Part shown: positions 1 to 28,259 of the stretch, one piece after another
How positions within the stretch are numbered: the stretch's first letter is position 1
How the letters are laid out: each line of letters starts with the position of its first letter
Source: Candidatus Firestoneibacteriota bacterium
Lineage (GTDB): Bacteria; Oederibacteriota; D2-FULL-39-29
Direction of reading: 5' to 3'
DNA length: 42,918 nt
Assembly (NCBI GenBank): GCA_903928075.1
Contig: CAIYPD010000067.1
Location: 1 to 42,918, forward strand
The notes under the pieces: model-generated
Seen by the model: the letters and a program-made list of their open reading frames with translations, nothing else
Told to the model about the DNA's origin: nothing
Databases searched by the model: none
Program-made: the position numbers and the translations under genes

Positions 1-158
1 GATGTCAACTACCGTTGACATAGCGAGATAAGCAAAGCTTTTCTCGATAGGAAGGATATATAGATGTCAACTGTCGTTGACATAGCGAGATAAGCAAAGC
101 TTTTCTCGATAGGAAGGATATATAGATGTCAACTGTCGTTGACATAACGAGATAAGGT
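1..158 (+). repeat. 62-bp tandem repeat, 2.5 copies
   Basis: Two full 62-base units (1-62, 63-124) and a partial third (125-158) follow one another with only a few substitutions. Each unit holds two inverted repeats: ATGTCAAC-4 bases-GTTGACAT, and a hairpin CGAGA-T-AAGC-AAA-GCTT-T-TCTCG. A single, slightly altered copy recurs at about 6354-6414. The third unit changes directly into another repeat module (154-179). The array begins at the window edge, so its true length is unknown. Confidence 0.9.
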
Positions 159-6296: not shown

Positions 6297-6614
6297 AGAA
6301 AAAGTCAAAGTGAAACCGCGTTTATAAAGTTTGTAAGGTTCATAAGGTTCGTAAGCAAAGCTTTTCTCGATAGGAATGATATATCGATGTCAACTTCCGT
6401 TGACATAGCGAGATAAGGTCAAAAATCGTTGAAGGATATTGTTAAAGGTCCATGAAGGTCTAGAATTGTTGAAGGATATCGTTTGTTAATATGACTTTCA
6501 AAAATGTAAGGTAAAGATATTTAGTCAACCGCCTATGCTTTGTGGCGGAAGTGTCCACCTTTGGTGGGATTTCGCAAATGACGGAGAATCTTGTACAAGG
6601 AGAACGATACATAA
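6297..6614 (+). repeat. Repeat-filled gap between ispA and dxs
   Basis: This 318-base gap is a mosaic: GTAAGGTTCATAAGG-type runs (6330-6355), one copy of the 62-bp hairpin unit (6354-6414) with CAACTTCCGTTG in the palindrome, two module B copies (6415-6440, 6455-6479), a TTCAAAAATGTAAG block also seen near 17.3 kb, an inverted CCGCC/GGCGG pair, and the GTGTCCACC block (6551-6590). The last bases hold the dxs ribosome site AAGGAG. No gene is visible. Confidence 0.85.
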
Positions 6615-8459
6615 ATGGCGATAATTGACAGGGTTAATTACCCGGAAGACATTAAAAAGATGAGTATTGTCGAATTACAGGAGTTGGCTGAAGATATCCG
6701 TAATTTGATAATTTCTGTTGTTTCAAAAACCGGCGGACACCTTGCCTCCAATCTCGGAGTGACGGAGCTTACCATAGCGCTGCACTATGTATTTAACAGC
6801 CCGGTAGACAAAATTGTCTGGGATGTCGGTCATCAGTCCTATGTTCACAAACTTTTGACCGGAAGAAAAGACAGATTCTCGACGCTCCGGCAGTTTGGCG
6901 GCCTTTCAGGCTTTCCCAAGCGCGCGGAAAGCAAGTATGATGCGTTTGATACCGGCCATAGCGGCACTTCAATTTCTGCGGCTCTGGGTATGGCGGTAGC
7001 CAGAGATCTGAAGAAAGAAGATTTTAAAGTCATTGCGGTCACAGGAGATGCCAGTTTATCCAATGGTATGTCTCTGGAAGCAATCAATAACGCCGGGCAT
7101 CTTAAAAAAGACCTGGTGGTAATATTAAATGACAACGAGATGTCCATAGCCCCGAATGTCGGAGCTATATCTGCACACCTTAATAGAATAATCACGGGCG
7201 AATTCTATAATAAAACAAAAGAAAGAGCCAAGAATTTTATTTCAAAAAGAGAAATCTTCGGTTTGCCGGTTATGAGAATAGCGAAGGTCATAGAAGAGGG
7301 TTTAAAGGGTATTATTTCTCACGGGATAATGTTTGAAGAGCTGGGTTTTAAATATGTCGGGCCTATCGACGGGCACGATCTGAAACAATTGATTGAAACT
7401 TTTCAGAGCATAAAGCGCTTTAAGGAACCGGTAATGGTGCATGTTGTCACTAAGAAGGGGAAAGGCTACAAACATGCCGAAGATAATCCTTCCTCCTTCC
7501 ACGGTACTCCGGCCTTTGAAATTGAAAGCGGTGAAGTTAATTCCAAAAAAGTAATGACTTTTACCGGGGTCTTTAGCCGTACGATACTAAAAATTGCCGC
7601 TAAAGACAAAAAAGTTGTGGCCATTACGGCTGCCATGCCCTCCGGAACCGGACTGGATAAATTCCAGGAAAGATATCCTGCGAGATTTTTTGATGTCGGG
7701 ATTGCCGAAGAACACGCGGTAACCTTTGCGGGAGGCCTGGCTGCGGGCGGATTAAAGCCGGTGGTGGCAATTTACTCGACTTTTCTTCAACGAGCGTACG
7801 ATTCTATCATTCACGATATTGCCATGCCCGCTTACCCGGTGGTTTTTGCGATAGACCGTTCGGGCATAGTCGGAGATGACGGCGAAACCCATCAGGGAGT
7901 ATTTGATATTTCTTTTTTAAGTCATGTGCCGAATTTTGTCATCATGTCGCCTGCGGATGAGGCGGAATTTAAAGAAATGCTTGAACTAGCTTTTAAACTG
8001 AAAAGACCGGTAGCGCTCCGGTATCCCCGGGGTGAAGTTACTGCTTCTAGAATAGGCGGGGGAAAAGTAATTTATAACCGTTCGGCGGTTGTAAGAAACG
8101 GCAAACACACCTGCATTCTTTCGGTAGGGACCATGCTGGTGGAGGCCATAAAAGCGGCCGACGAACTGAAAAAAGAAGGCATAGAGACAGGGATAGTAAA
8201 TGCCCGGTTTATAAAACCGCTTGATACTGTTATGCTCAAGACTCTAGCCCGTAAATATAAAAAAATAGTTATTGTGGAAGAAAATCTGAGTGCCGGCGGT
8301 TTTGGCAGTTTAGTTCTGGACTATTACGATAAAAATTCTATAAAAATTGAGCTGGTCAGACTCGGTTTGCCTGATAAATTTATTGAGCACGGCAGCAGAA
8401 AGATACTGCTTGAAAAATACGGAATTTCAAAGGAAAGGATAGTAAAAGAATGTTTGTAA
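6615..8459 (+). CDS. dxs: 1-deoxy-D-xylulose-5-phosphate synthase
   Basis: DXS joins pyruvate and glyceraldehyde-3-phosphate with thiamine diphosphate, the first step of the methylerythritol-phosphate isoprenoid pathway. HLASNLGVTELTIALHYVFN (42-61) and WDVGHQSYVHKLLTGR (69-84) are classic. The cofactor motif reads GDASLSNGMSLEAIN at residue 144, with A where GDG is more usual. The pyrimidine domain holds GIAEEHAVTFAGG and IDRSGIVGDDGETHQG, and the C-terminal transketolase domain follows. The length of 614 is near the usual 620-640. ATG 6615 has AAGGAG about 12 bases upstream. It supplies precursors used by the adjacent ispA product. Confidence 0.97.
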   Translation: MAIIDRVNYPEDIKKMSIVELQELAEDIRNLIISVVSKTGGHLASNLGVTELTIALHYVFNSPVDKIVWDVGHQSYVHKLLTGRKDRFSTLRQFGGLSGFPKRAESKYDAFDTGHSGTSISAALGMAVARDLKKEDFKVIAVTGDASLSNGMSLEAINNAGHLKKDLVVILNDNEMSIAPNVGAISAHLNRIITGEFYNKTKERAKNFISKREIFGLPVMRIAKVIEEGLKGIISHGIMFEELGFKYVGPIDGHDLKQLIETFQSIKRFKEPVMVHVVTKKGKGYKHAEDNPSSFHGTPAFEIESGEVNSKKVMTFTGVFSRTILKIAAKDKKVVAITAAMPSGTGLDKFQERYPARFFDVGIAEEHAVTFAGGLAAGGLKPVVAIYSTFLQRAYDSIIHDIAMPAYPVVFAIDRSGIVGDDGETHQGVFDISFLSHVPNFVIMSPADEAEFKEMLELAFKLKRPVALRYPRGEVTASRIGGGKVIYNRSAVVRNGKHTCILSVGTMLVEAIKAADELKKEGIETGIVNARFIKPLDTVMLKTLARKYKKIVIVEENLSAGGFGSLVLDYYDKNSIKIELVRLGLPDKFIEHGSRKILLEKYGISKERIVKECL

Positions 8460-8820
8460 GGTTGATAAGTGTTTATAAGGTTTGTAAAGTTTGTAAGGTT
8501 TGTAAGGTCTGGAATCGTTGAAAGATATTGATTTGTCTTATAAGTGGAATCAAAGGGATTTGCAATCTGTGTCCACCTTCGGTGAGATCTCGCCAAGGGC
8601 GGAGAATCTTTTTAAAAAGGTCTGGAATCGCTGAAGGATATTAATTGGTTTTAGTCTCTGTATCTGTGCCATCTGTTTTTATCTGTGACATCAGCTGCGC
8701 TTTCAGCAGCATAAGGTCTAGAATCGTTGAAGGATATAAAAAAATACTGCGAGCCGTTCTTTGGCGAGACAGTCCGCCAAGCTTAAGGGCGGAAGTGTAA
8801 TCATTTCAAGGAGTTGAATT
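8460..8820 (+). repeat. Repeat-filled gap between dxs and nadK
   Basis: The 361-base gap contains GTTTATAAGGTTTGTAAGG-type runs (8465-8503), module B at 8504-8529, 8617-8642 and 8713-8737, the GTCCACCTTCGGTGAGATCT block at 8569-8608, and a TCTGTGCCATCTGTTTTTAT block with a GCTGC/GCAGC hairpin at 8648-8712. An inverted CCGCC/GGCGG pair lies near 8770-8792. The nadK ribosome site AAGGAG ends the gap. No gene is visible, although tlyA often sits at this place in other bacteria. Confidence 0.85.
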
Positions 8821-11358: not shown

Positions 11359-11588
11359 GGGCAACAGTCCATAAAGGTCTATAAAGTCCATAAGGTCTAA
11401 AGTCGTTGAGGGATATTTATTGTAGTCTATGTATCTGTGTCATCTATTTTTTATCTGTGACATCAGCTGCGCTTTCAGCAGCATAAAGTCTAAAATCATT
11501 GTGAGATATTTATGTAAGGGATAGGCTTTAACTTCTCCCTTCTCTCCATAAATAGTAGGGTGAAGGAAACTGATTAAAAGGAGATATT
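11359..11588 (+). repeat. Repeat-filled gap between recN and the desulfurase gene
   Basis: The gap starts with CCATAAAGGTCTATAAAGTCC runs, continues with module B (11392-11417), the TCTGTGTCATCTA block plus GCTGCGCTTTCAGCAGC hairpin (11421-11484), and a second, more diverged module B (11485-11510). The module order differs from that in front of nadK. The last bases contain AAAAGGAGA, the ribosome site for the next gene. Confidence 0.85.
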
Positions 11589-13317: not shown

Positions 13318-13604
13318 AAAGCACAGTGGGGAAAGTGAGAAATAATAATCTGACCATCCGCTACGGACTTTACGGAACTTCGGTTAAGCAGGAACAAGGC
13401 ACAAAAGATGACGTTTGGATGGTTGGAGGCTTAGAGGTTTGGCAAGAGATAATTAGACAAAACGACAAGTTTAAATTTTTGCACCTAAATAAATATTCTG
13501 CAATGATTTTAGACTTTATGGACCTTACAAACATTATAAACCTTTATCGACCTTTTGGACTTTACAGACTTTTAGACCGTTCCGGTCGACCTTGCTTTTA
13601 TTAT
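13318..13604 (-). repeat. Reverse-oriented repeat mosaic upstream of csp
   Basis: On the minus strand this stretch carries the same modules as the plus-strand gaps: GTAAAGTCCAAAAGGTCGAT-type runs (about 13530-13590) and module B at 13492-13517. A TTGGAGGCTTAGAGGTTTGG segment near 13422-13442 resembles 1104-1120. A possible reading frame from 13326 to 13619 is largely translated repeat and is not called. Confidence 0.75.
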
Positions 13605-13632
13605 TTGACAAAAATATAATTGTTATGATAAT
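13605..13632 (+). promoter_or_regulatory. csp promoter
   Basis: TTGACA (13605-13610) and GATAAT (13627-13632) are 16 bases apart. Transcription would begin near 13640, leaving an untranslated leader of about 65 bases, a length that suits a temperature-responsive cold-shock mRNA. Confidence 0.7.
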
Positions 13633-13703
13633 ATTTAGATACAAGGAACAAGAAATCCGGACTTCAGGAGAAACGGGTTTAATTTTCAAGGAGGGCGAAC
13701 AAA

Positions 13704-13907
13704 ATGGAAGTTAAAGGAAAGGTTAAATGGTTCAATGAAGCAAAAGGGTATGGTTTCATCGAGCAGGAAGGTGGGGGCGATGTTTTTGCGCACTATTCTG
13801 CGATACAGGGTGACGGTTTTAAAACACTGGCGGCAGGTCAGGAAGTAAAATTTGAAGTTACCCAGGGCGCAAAAGGACCTCAAGCGGTCAATATAGTCAA
13901 AATATAA
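13704..13907 (+). CDS. Cold-shock domain protein
   Basis: This 67-residue single-domain protein of the CspA family binds single-stranded RNA and DNA as an RNA chaperone. The start [20 protein letters not shown] contains the RNP1 motif (KGYGFIE), and DVFAHYSAI is RNP2. The C-terminal [10 protein letters not shown] matches the family. AAGGAGG precedes ATG 13704. It has its own promoter and terminator, so it is a single-gene transcript. RNP1 has YGFIE where many members have FGFIT. Confidence 0.97.
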
Positions 13908-13942
13908 TACAGCAGGCATTTTTGCCGGGCTTGGAATATTCT

Positions 13943-13978
13943 GACCACCTAGAATCCCCGTGATTTGGGTGGTCTTTT
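13943..13978 (+). terminator. Rho-independent terminator after csp
   Basis: GACCACC (13943-13949) and GGTGGTC (13968-13974) form a 7-bp stem followed at once by TTTT. It lies 35 bases after the csp stop codon. Confidence 0.75.
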
Positions 13979-17139: not shown

Positions 17140-17400
17140 CGGTCCGTAAGGGTCTGTAAAGGTCGACAAGGGTTTATAAGGTTTGTAAGGCTGTAAGGTC
17201 TGTAAAGGTCCGCAAAGGTCTATAAAGTCCATAAGGTCTAAAATCGTTGAAGGATATTTATTTGTTTTCTTCTCTGCATCTGTGTCATCTGTTTTTATCT
17301 GTGTATCTGCCTTCAAAAATGTAAATATTTTGGTATTTGAGCATCCGCCTGGGCGGAAGCTGTGCTTTTAGCAGCGTAAGGTATGTAAAGTCCATAAAAG
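17140..17400 (+). repeat. Repeat mosaic between yvcK and the ligase gene
   Basis: From left to right: multiple GGTCTGTAAAGGTC-type runs (17140-17232), module B (17233-17258), the ATCTGTGTCATCTGTTTTTA block (17262-17310), the TTCAAAAATGTAAATATTTT block, a perfect TCCGCCTGGGCGGA palindrome near 17345, and a CTGTGCTTTTAGCAGC remnant. The two divergent promoters flank it, so it sits outside both transcripts. Confidence 0.85.
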
Positions 17401-19253: not shown

Positions 19254-20198
19254 ATGAAACTACAGAACTATGAAGTAAAGAATGAAAAAATAAAAAAAGC
19301 TTTTCTTCTACTCAAGAAAAATAATCCCGGGAAATTTAAAAAGAAGCTGAATCTTTCGTGGAGTAACTGGGGTTTTGGACTGGAGAGTTTGACAGAATCG
19401 GCAAAAAGACTTCGCAGACACAGTGTTCCTTTTATAGAACTCCACGGGAACCATTATGGTGAAGACCTGGGTTATAAAGCGGAGGAGACCCAAAAGATGC
19501 TTAAAGATAATAATATCAAGGTCTCGGGGATTTGCGGGATGTTTTCTGCGGACAATGATCTTTCGAGCAACCGTCCCCTTTTAAGGCAGAACGCCGTGGA
19601 TTACCTTAAAAGAGAACTGGATTTTGCGGTAAAAGTAGAGGCAAAGTATATCCTTGTGGTTCCCGGTGCTGTCGGCAGGCCCGCCAAGTATGATGACTCG
19701 GAATTTGAAAGAAGCGTGGAGACCCTAAGAATAGTCGCCGGGCTTTTTCAAAAAAGCAAGGTCAGGGCGGCAATTGAACCTATTCGCGCCGCTGAAGTAA
19801 GTTTTATCCACACGATTGCGGACGCCAAAAGTTATATTGAATCCGTTGCTCATCCCGGAGTAAGGCATATAAACGGGGATGTTTATCATATGCAAAGCGG
19901 GGAAACCCACATAGGTGAAGCATTGCTTGCGGCCGGAGAAATGCTCACAAACTTGCATATGGCGGACAGCAACAGATGTGCTCTTTCGGATGGAGCACTT
20001 GATTTGGATACTATAATAAGAGCGCTTTACCTTATTGGTTTTAATAACGACAGTTGTTTTGTCACCCCGGAGCCCCTGGGACCGGGCGGGGATCCTTATC
20101 CGGCTATGAACGGGAAGCCTGACTTGAAAACTCTCGAAATGCTGGTCAAAAAAACTGCGGAATATTTTAAGGAAAGAGAAGCGGAGTTGCTAAGATAG
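19254..20198 (+). CDS. Sugar epimerase, D-tagatose 3-epimerase-like TIM barrel
   Basis: A 314-residue xylose-isomerase-like TIM-barrel protein. The likely metal ligands appear in the order Glu (AAIEPIRAAE), Asp and His (NGDVYHMQ), His (NLHMADSNR) and Glu (VTPEPLGPG), the tetrad of D-tagatose/L-ribulose 3-epimerases. ATG 19254 is chosen for its strong AAAGGAGGGGG site; a GTG at 19227 lies six bases after a TAATAT box but lacks a convincing -35. It precedes ribulokinase and ribulose-phosphate epimerase genes, so it may feed L-ribulose to them. Similar folds include hydroxypyruvate isomerase and IolE, so the reaction is unproven. Confidence 0.78.
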   Translation: MKLQNYEVKNEKIKKAFLLLKKNNPGKFKKKLNLSWSNWGFGLESLTESAKRLRRHSVPFIELHGNHYGEDLGYKAEETQKMLKDNNIKVSGICGMFSADNDLSSNRPLLRQNAVDYLKRELDFAVKVEAKYILVVPGAVGRPAKYDDSEFERSVETLRIVAGLFQKSKVRAAIEPIRAAEVSFIHTIADAKSYIESVAHPGVRHINGDVYHMQSGETHIGEALLAAGEMLTNLHMADSNRCALSDGALDLDTIIRALYLIGFNNDSCFVTPEPLGPGGDPYPAMNGKPDLKTLEMLVKKTAEYFKEREAELLR

Positions 20199-20294
20199 GT
20201 TTGTAAAGTTTGTAAGGTACATAAGGTTTATAAGGAATAGCAAAGTTGAGCGGGTCGTACTTCTTTGCGGATAAAATATTTATGGAGAAAATAT

Positions 20295-22834: not shown

Positions 22835-22955
22835 CGGATGAACAGAAGTACGGAAGTACGGAAGTACAGCAAGAGCAAAGTAAATATTTACCTGTGTCCA
22901 CCTTCGGTGAGATCTCGCCAGGGGCGGAGAATCGTTTTTTATGAAAGGAGAGTTA
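22835..22955 (+). repeat. Short tandem GGAAGTAC and GTCCACC repeat block
   Basis: ACGGAAGTACGGAAGTAC is repeated at 22850-22868. The block CTGTGTCCACCTTCGGTGAG to GGAGAATC (about 22892-22933) matches those at 6551-6590 and 8569-8608. An ATGAAAGGAG segment supplies the ribosome site for the next gene. Confidence 0.8.
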
Positions 22956-25611: not shown

Positions 25612-25710
25612 GGATAAGTACAAAGTACAAGGTACGAAGTACTAAGTGTAAGGATAAGTCAAGGTACGAAGTATGAAGCTAAGCGATAAATTCTAAACAA
25701 GGAAGCGCTT
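25612..25710 (+). repeat. GTACAAAGTAC-type simple repeat
   Basis: Between the FMN-subunit and ferredoxin genes lies a run of slightly varied AAGTACAA/GGTACGAAGTAC units (about 25617-25675). Similar runs occur at 28200-28236 and 22845-22868. The ferredoxin ribosome site AAGGAAG ends it. Confidence 0.75.
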
Positions 25711-28162: not shown

Positions 28163-28259
28163 GCAGAGGGTTAGAAGGTCTGAGGGTCGTAAGGGCGGAA
28201 AAAAGTACAATGTACGAAGTACAAAGTACAAAGTTAAAACAAAACTCCGGTCTTGTCTT
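28163..28259 (+). repeat. Convergent gap with GTAC-type repeat
   Basis: The 97 bases between the convergent GXGXG and aroB genes contain GAGGGTTAGAAGGTCTGAGG and GTACAATGTACGAAGTAC-type runs. No T-run terminator for either strand is obvious. Confidence 0.6.

Follow-up and report, generated by a model that had tools for sequence, protein, structure and literature searches.

Intergenic repeats of modular build have been described in a few cultured lineages, but have rarely been observed as they arise. BOX elements of Streptococcus pneumoniae join boxA, boxB and boxC in a fixed order with variable copies of the middle module, and are enriched between convergent genes; for at least one of the repeat families treated in the same paper, easily comparable empty sites were reported to be lacking (PMC3049150). 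REP sequences and the BIME arrays that they form are tied to RAYT transposases, each of whose genes reportedly lies between two inverted REP copies (PMC2817692), and a role as orientation-dependent RNase sites has been reported for ERIC and Correia elements (PMC3049150). Here we describe a composite, layered intergenic repeat system that is probably restricted to one Firestonebacteria-like family, in which a hairpin unit probably behaves as a non-autonomous, TAAG-targeted mini-element and a second, directional set of modules appears to grow by duplication.

The DNA analyzed (the window) is contig C67, 42,918 nt long, of a 2.72-Mb genome (G000) assembled in 148 contigs at 98% completeness, whose Dxs protein shares 83% identity with that of Candidatus Firestonebacteria AM-2014_bin-3360 (locus L031). 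We scanned 1.33 Mb of G000 for repeats (45 contigs, some picked for holding repeats, and thus a repeat-enriched sample), read parts of two relatives (G001, from the same genus as the window, and G004, from the same family) and searched 44-45 whole genomes of the phylum to map distribution. Genes were called as mechanical open reading frames (ORFs) with a codon-usage filter, and kinship among genomes follows taxonomy labels and one protein.

When 14-mers were counted de novo across the 1.33 Mb, only five clusters reached 25 copies or more, and all of them correspond to modules picked out by an earlier sequence-only reading of the window: module B (RTAAGGTCTAAAATCGTTGAAGGATATT), both halves of a 62-bp unit that we call H, and two blocks named G (GTCCACC) and U (ATCTGTG). 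Scans with position-weight matrices, at thresholds tolerating about two matches in an equal-length Markov control, matched B 127 times, H 53, G 81, U 118, a short hairpin module (S) 31 and a degenerate 9-bp run of GTTTRTAAG (T) 184 times. Whole-genome searches of G000 found 46 copies of H (covariance model), 124 of B (at most three mismatches), 30 of G (at most one mismatch) and 14 of U (at most three mismatches), and reversed-pattern controls for B, G and U gave zero matches. The expectation that these modules would recur beyond the window is thus borne out, and every module named in that reading was recovered in its place: ten copies of B, nine on the plus strand and one on the minus strand, three ATCTGTG blocks (8648, 11421 and 17262), three GTCCACC blocks (6551, 8569 and 22894) and the 62-bp unit at 1-158 and 6351-6417. 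Two of its generalizations hold in part: the modules are overwhelmingly intergenic, as had been proposed, but 8 of 127 B and 7 of 53 H (H1) matches fall inside ORFs of at least 150 aa, some of them by chance; and modules occupy most gaps over 200 bases in the window, but only 102 of 251 gaps of at least 200 bp in the contigs examined, some of which had been selected for their repeats.

Within the window, the modules lie on the plus strand at all but one locus. The contig opens inside an H array of 62-bp period, in which two complete tandem copies, matched by both the covariance model and the position-weight scan, follow an incomplete one truncated at the contig end (1-156), and a B module matched by the position-weight scan comes next (151-179). 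The end of another contig (G000:C91:42157-42261) and window 1-105 have 105 nt in common at 100%, both ends lying inside H arrays, so the two contigs may be chromosomal neighbors; the repeat system accounts for contig breaks in G000. Downstream of an ispA-like gene, a T run begins 29 nt past the stop codon (6326-6357) and leads into an H copy supported by the covariance-model match and by covariation (6351-6417; inner stem ATGTCAAC/GTTGACAT, outer stem TCTCG/CGAGA), two B modules (6412-6440 and 6452-6480, together 6412-6480) and a GC-rich palindromic G block of the form GTCCACC...GGTG (6551-6590). After dxs, whose stop codon TAA (8457-8459) lies inside the first TTTGTAAGG unit of a T run (8449-8508), there follow B (8501-8529), G (8567-8613), B (8614-8642), the tandem-like ATCTGTG block U (8657-8687), the S hairpin GCTGC...GCAGC (8690-8710), which has compensatory GCCGC...GCGGC variants elsewhere, and a final B (8710-8738) joined to S at ATAAGGTC. 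Further cassettes are T-B-U-S-B after recN (11374-11510), T-B on the minus strand (13492-13572) and T-B-U, a GC-rich hairpin, S and T (17169-17400); a T run stands alone from the upstream stop codon on at 20196-20242, and a G block alone at 22887-22938. The minus-strand T run is overlapped by a sub-threshold Rfam match to the cspA thermoregulator (13522-13978, E 0.00029) that lies over a cold-shock-like gene. Another dispersed class of intergenic repeat, short-period runs of the GAAGTACGAAGTAC type, occurs at 25616-25690 and 28203-28237, with 16 places in the part of G000 read.

The modules had been described as a shuffled vocabulary joined in different orders, a view that the transition counts contradict. 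Among neighbors, defined as modules within 160 bp of each other, 151 pairs lie on the same strand and 15 on opposite strands, and transitions run one way: H to B 24:1, B to U 33:4, U to S 24:0 and S to B 21:3. The vocabulary therefore has a syntax, T-H-T-B-U-S-B, with pieces absent or repeated in places, and tandem arrays with 62-bp and 67-bp periods are present. The proposal that modules join at fixed edges, by contrast, stands: joints fall at TAAG or TAAGG, those of B at TAAGG or TAAAG, and of the 127 B cores, 108 follow TAAGGT or TAAAGT.

Measured between its joints, H spans 62 bp, and it forms a hairpin whose stems vary in a compensatory manner. It comprises an AAGC-AAA-GCTT head, the outer stem, a conserved 5' internal loop (GATAGGAAGGATATATAG) and an inner hairpin of 8 bp, and its ends (TAAGCAAAGC and CGAGATAAG) are not inverted repeats. 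In an alignment of 39 distinct copies from five genomes (two rows of which carry one base differing from the source, outside the paired columns), the stems are paired in 92.9% of cells and hold 19 compensatory cells, where shuffled alignments give 3.2 +/- 1.5 (0 of 500 reached this value), while sliding the stems lowered pairing to 25-55%. Compensated inner stems include GCCAA/TTGGC and CTGTCA/TGACAG, and the outer stem is likewise compensated in G000 copies that pair CTTG with CAAG; S shows the same behavior, with GCTGC/GCAGC in 14 copies and GCCGC/GCGGC in 6. Such covariation fits RNA and single-stranded DNA alike and cannot tell them apart. An Rfam search of the modules returned only sub-threshold, unrelated matches, and we rejected a known structured RNA family as their identity. 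Two short H copies of 47-48 nt in G004 (L254:11868 and L259:3611) lack exactly the inner hairpin, whereas their head, loop and outer stem are retained. A sister family that shares the head and layout of H but is rare occurs at G000:C118:23345-23700 and in G001 (locus L240, near 18833); in it, a tandem repeat of about 160 bp links a GTCATTGCGAGGAATCGACCG repeat with an element resembling H, whose outer stem is TTTTG/CAAAA and inner hairpin CTTCAATAGCC/GGCTATGAAG.

Comparison of orthologous gaps shows sites with and without these sequences. The ispA-dxs gap measures 1 bp in L031 and 318 bp in the window, the dxs-nadK gap 2 bp and 361 bp, and the gap at serA about 25 bp in G001 and 270 bp in G000. 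At two loci the difference is a single unit: on C7, the array GTTTATAAAGTTT|ATAAGGTTTGTAAAG of G001 (L242) is split in G000 by exactly 62 bp, an H copy, and on C24, beside tkt, GTTTGTAAGGTTT|TTAAAGTCTAAGATCG of G001 is split by 63 bp, the H copy there being one base longer. At both, G001, a congener of G000, keeps the orthologous T-B array without H. Because two T-B arrays miss exactly one H and three cassettes are absent from the tight operons of relatives, we interpret the cassettes as insertions. TAAG stands on both sides of H at these 62- and 63-bp differences, and other H copies are flanked by GAAG or TATG. The direction of the H change, gain or loss, we infer from the nested taxonomic ranges described below; the two H-only pairs could instead be losses in G001, and the 4-bp TAAG homology is also compatible with recombination-driven insertion or deletion.

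The ranges of the modules are nested, with T order-wide, H and G family-wide, and B and U mainly confined to one genus. Both families of the order have T runs (G000-G008). Counts in the family's five genomes are 46, 5, 29, 1 and 43 for H by covariance model and 30, 2, 16, 0 and 20 for G, whereas sister-family genomes each have at most one marginal H match. B numbers 124 and 22 copies in the window's genus, then 9, 0 and 6 in the rest of the family, and the strict U pattern is found in G000 only, with a variant carrying an indel in G001. In 36 further genomes of the phylum the covariance model found no H, and all the other modules are missing there as well. Plasmid and phage collections held no match to the modules, and a plasmid or phage origin was rejected.

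Together, the nested ranges and the filled and empty pairs show a layering of tandem run, then hairpin insertion, then directional module duplication. The first, order-wide layer is the degenerate GTTTRTAAG run, mostly beginning at or just past a stop codon. The second is H, a 58-bp hairpin element plus a TAAG joint, together the 62-bp unit, which in our reading inserts as a discrete unit at TAAG or TAAR within T runs, a transposase acting in trans being its probable mover. The third, found mainly in one genus, is directional B-U-S-B, which may grow into B(USB)n through tandem duplication at its TAAGG joints. We would expect cassettes in operons to be co-transcribed as intercistronic RNA with stable hairpins, because they leave both the stop codon upstream and the ribosome-binding site downstream intact; if they influence mRNA processing or stability at all, this would be a secondary effect.

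The foremost alternative, which we consider unlikely, is that the cassettes are selected regulatory or mRNA-processing elements: RNase sites, stabilizers, or TAAGG Shine-Dalgarno-like runs for ribosome restart. Such a role would suit the maintenance of stems by compensatory change, the RNase sites reported for ERIC and Correia elements (PMC3049150), and the placement of the modules, the first of which starts a median of 14 nt past the upstream stop codon (quartiles 3 and 29; 77 gaps in G000), the stop codon lying within the T run in several gaps, as at dxs (8457). This closeness to the gene edge is expected anyway, since insertion falls in tight operon gaps. Strand bias in G000 also speaks for selection, with H between co-directional genes sense in 33 cases and antisense in 2, B in unique co-directional gaps 54:12 and T 68:25; G001 gives 13:2 for B and 16:7 for T. 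In the held-out genome G004, however, H is oriented 8:8, and we rejected a general orientation lock; the bias is therefore no rule of the insertion reaction, and the strand lock is a property of G000's lineage. Where the neighborhood opposes the flanking genes, modules follow the flanking genes in 3 of 3 cases, and replication and transcription are only partly separable as causes of the G000 bias. The absence of entire cassettes from relatives' orthologous operons, and the unrelated housekeeping genes that flank them, also argue against selected elements.

Still less probable is that H is a REP-like element mobilized by the genome's own RAYT transposases. G000 has four RAYT-type Y1_Tnp genes (C89:1357-1944, C112:16124-16696, C96:12426-13115 and C114:27922-28611; loci L084-L087), Y1_Tnp occurs in 8 of 9 relatives tested, the one without it (G003) has a single H, and H combines a hairpin with a short joint that resembles a target. 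Each of the four genes, however, has its own, different flanking palindromes (GTGACAGTCAC..., GGGGACAGCGAC, GGGACAGCGCC), which are also dispersed in the genome, and no H, B or S lies within 4 kb of them; sister-family genomes, moreover, contain Y1_Tnp yet at most one marginal H. Since RAYT genes here lack flanking H copies, H does not show the association described for REP sequences, and we rejected RAYT as its partner on these palindromes. The sequence-only reading had looked to a REP-associated transposase or reverse transcriptase alongside the modules; its view of a composite and mobile or recombinogenic family survives as composite and at least partly mobile, given the 62-63-bp H units and the cassettes absent in relatives, and its REP-type enzyme link does not. 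The reverse transcriptase domain RVT_1 (PF00078) had no match in G000 and one in the nine genomes tested, and we rejected a reverse transcriptase or group II intron origin. No multi-copy transposase ORF was present in the half of G000 read, where a fragmented assembly could lose long IS copies, and a multi-copy IS was likewise rejected as partner. Least likely of all is an origin of the whole set without mobility, by replication slippage and unequal recombination among TAAGG-rich tandem repeats, which the 9-bp T run, the 62- and 67-bp arrays and the TAAG or TAAGG at every joint would suit, but which is weakened because slippage cannot disperse a unit and H occupies 46 dispersed sites, some outside T runs, as the same 62-bp unit with covarying stems.

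Returning to H as an inserting mini-element, we raise the tentative possibility, which we would not yet favor, that the system makes its own landing pad, the T run growing at stop codons and supplying TAAG targets for a tetranucleotide-specific enzyme. If so, a structured element would spread through operon spacers in the transcribed sense while leaving neighboring genes unharmed, in a repeat-in-repeat niche. We anticipate that this family will offer a tractable case for finding the enzyme behind the spread of such small hairpins and for learning how inserts of 300 bp between coupled genes are tolerated in operons.

Among known systems, MITEs, Correia/NEMIS and ERIC elements resemble H as small non-coding units inserted between genes and structured once transcribed. 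H, unlike a MITE, has no terminal inverted repeat and no matching transposon in the half of the genome read, and on these two grounds we rejected a standard MITE; its TAAG flanks are imperfect and partly belong to the element. REP/BIME arrays with RAYT (PMC2817692) share with our modules a palindromic, dispersed and intergenic character, compensatory stems, mosaic arrays and RAYT genes in the genome. BIME units alternate in orientation, whereas modules here agree in strand (the 151:15 above), for which reason a BIME identity was rejected; the GTAG foot of REP is absent, and the RAYT genes of G000 carry palindromes other than H. BOX comes closest, being like the modules short, intergenic, hairpin-forming, ordered with variable middle copies, limited to related species and presumed non-autonomous (PMC3049150), and T-H-T-B-U-S-B with repeated B-U-S has a BOX-type ordered architecture, the likeness drawn here being one of architecture alone. 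In contrast to BOX, the modules lie between co-directional genes, after the stop codon, and have joints at TAAG or TAAGG, and H, unlike the repeat family for which comparable empty sites were lacking (PMC3049150), has an observed single-unit empty site. The best reading of these comparisons is that the system is a lineage-restricted member of the modular intergenic-repeat kind, like BOX and REP in kind.
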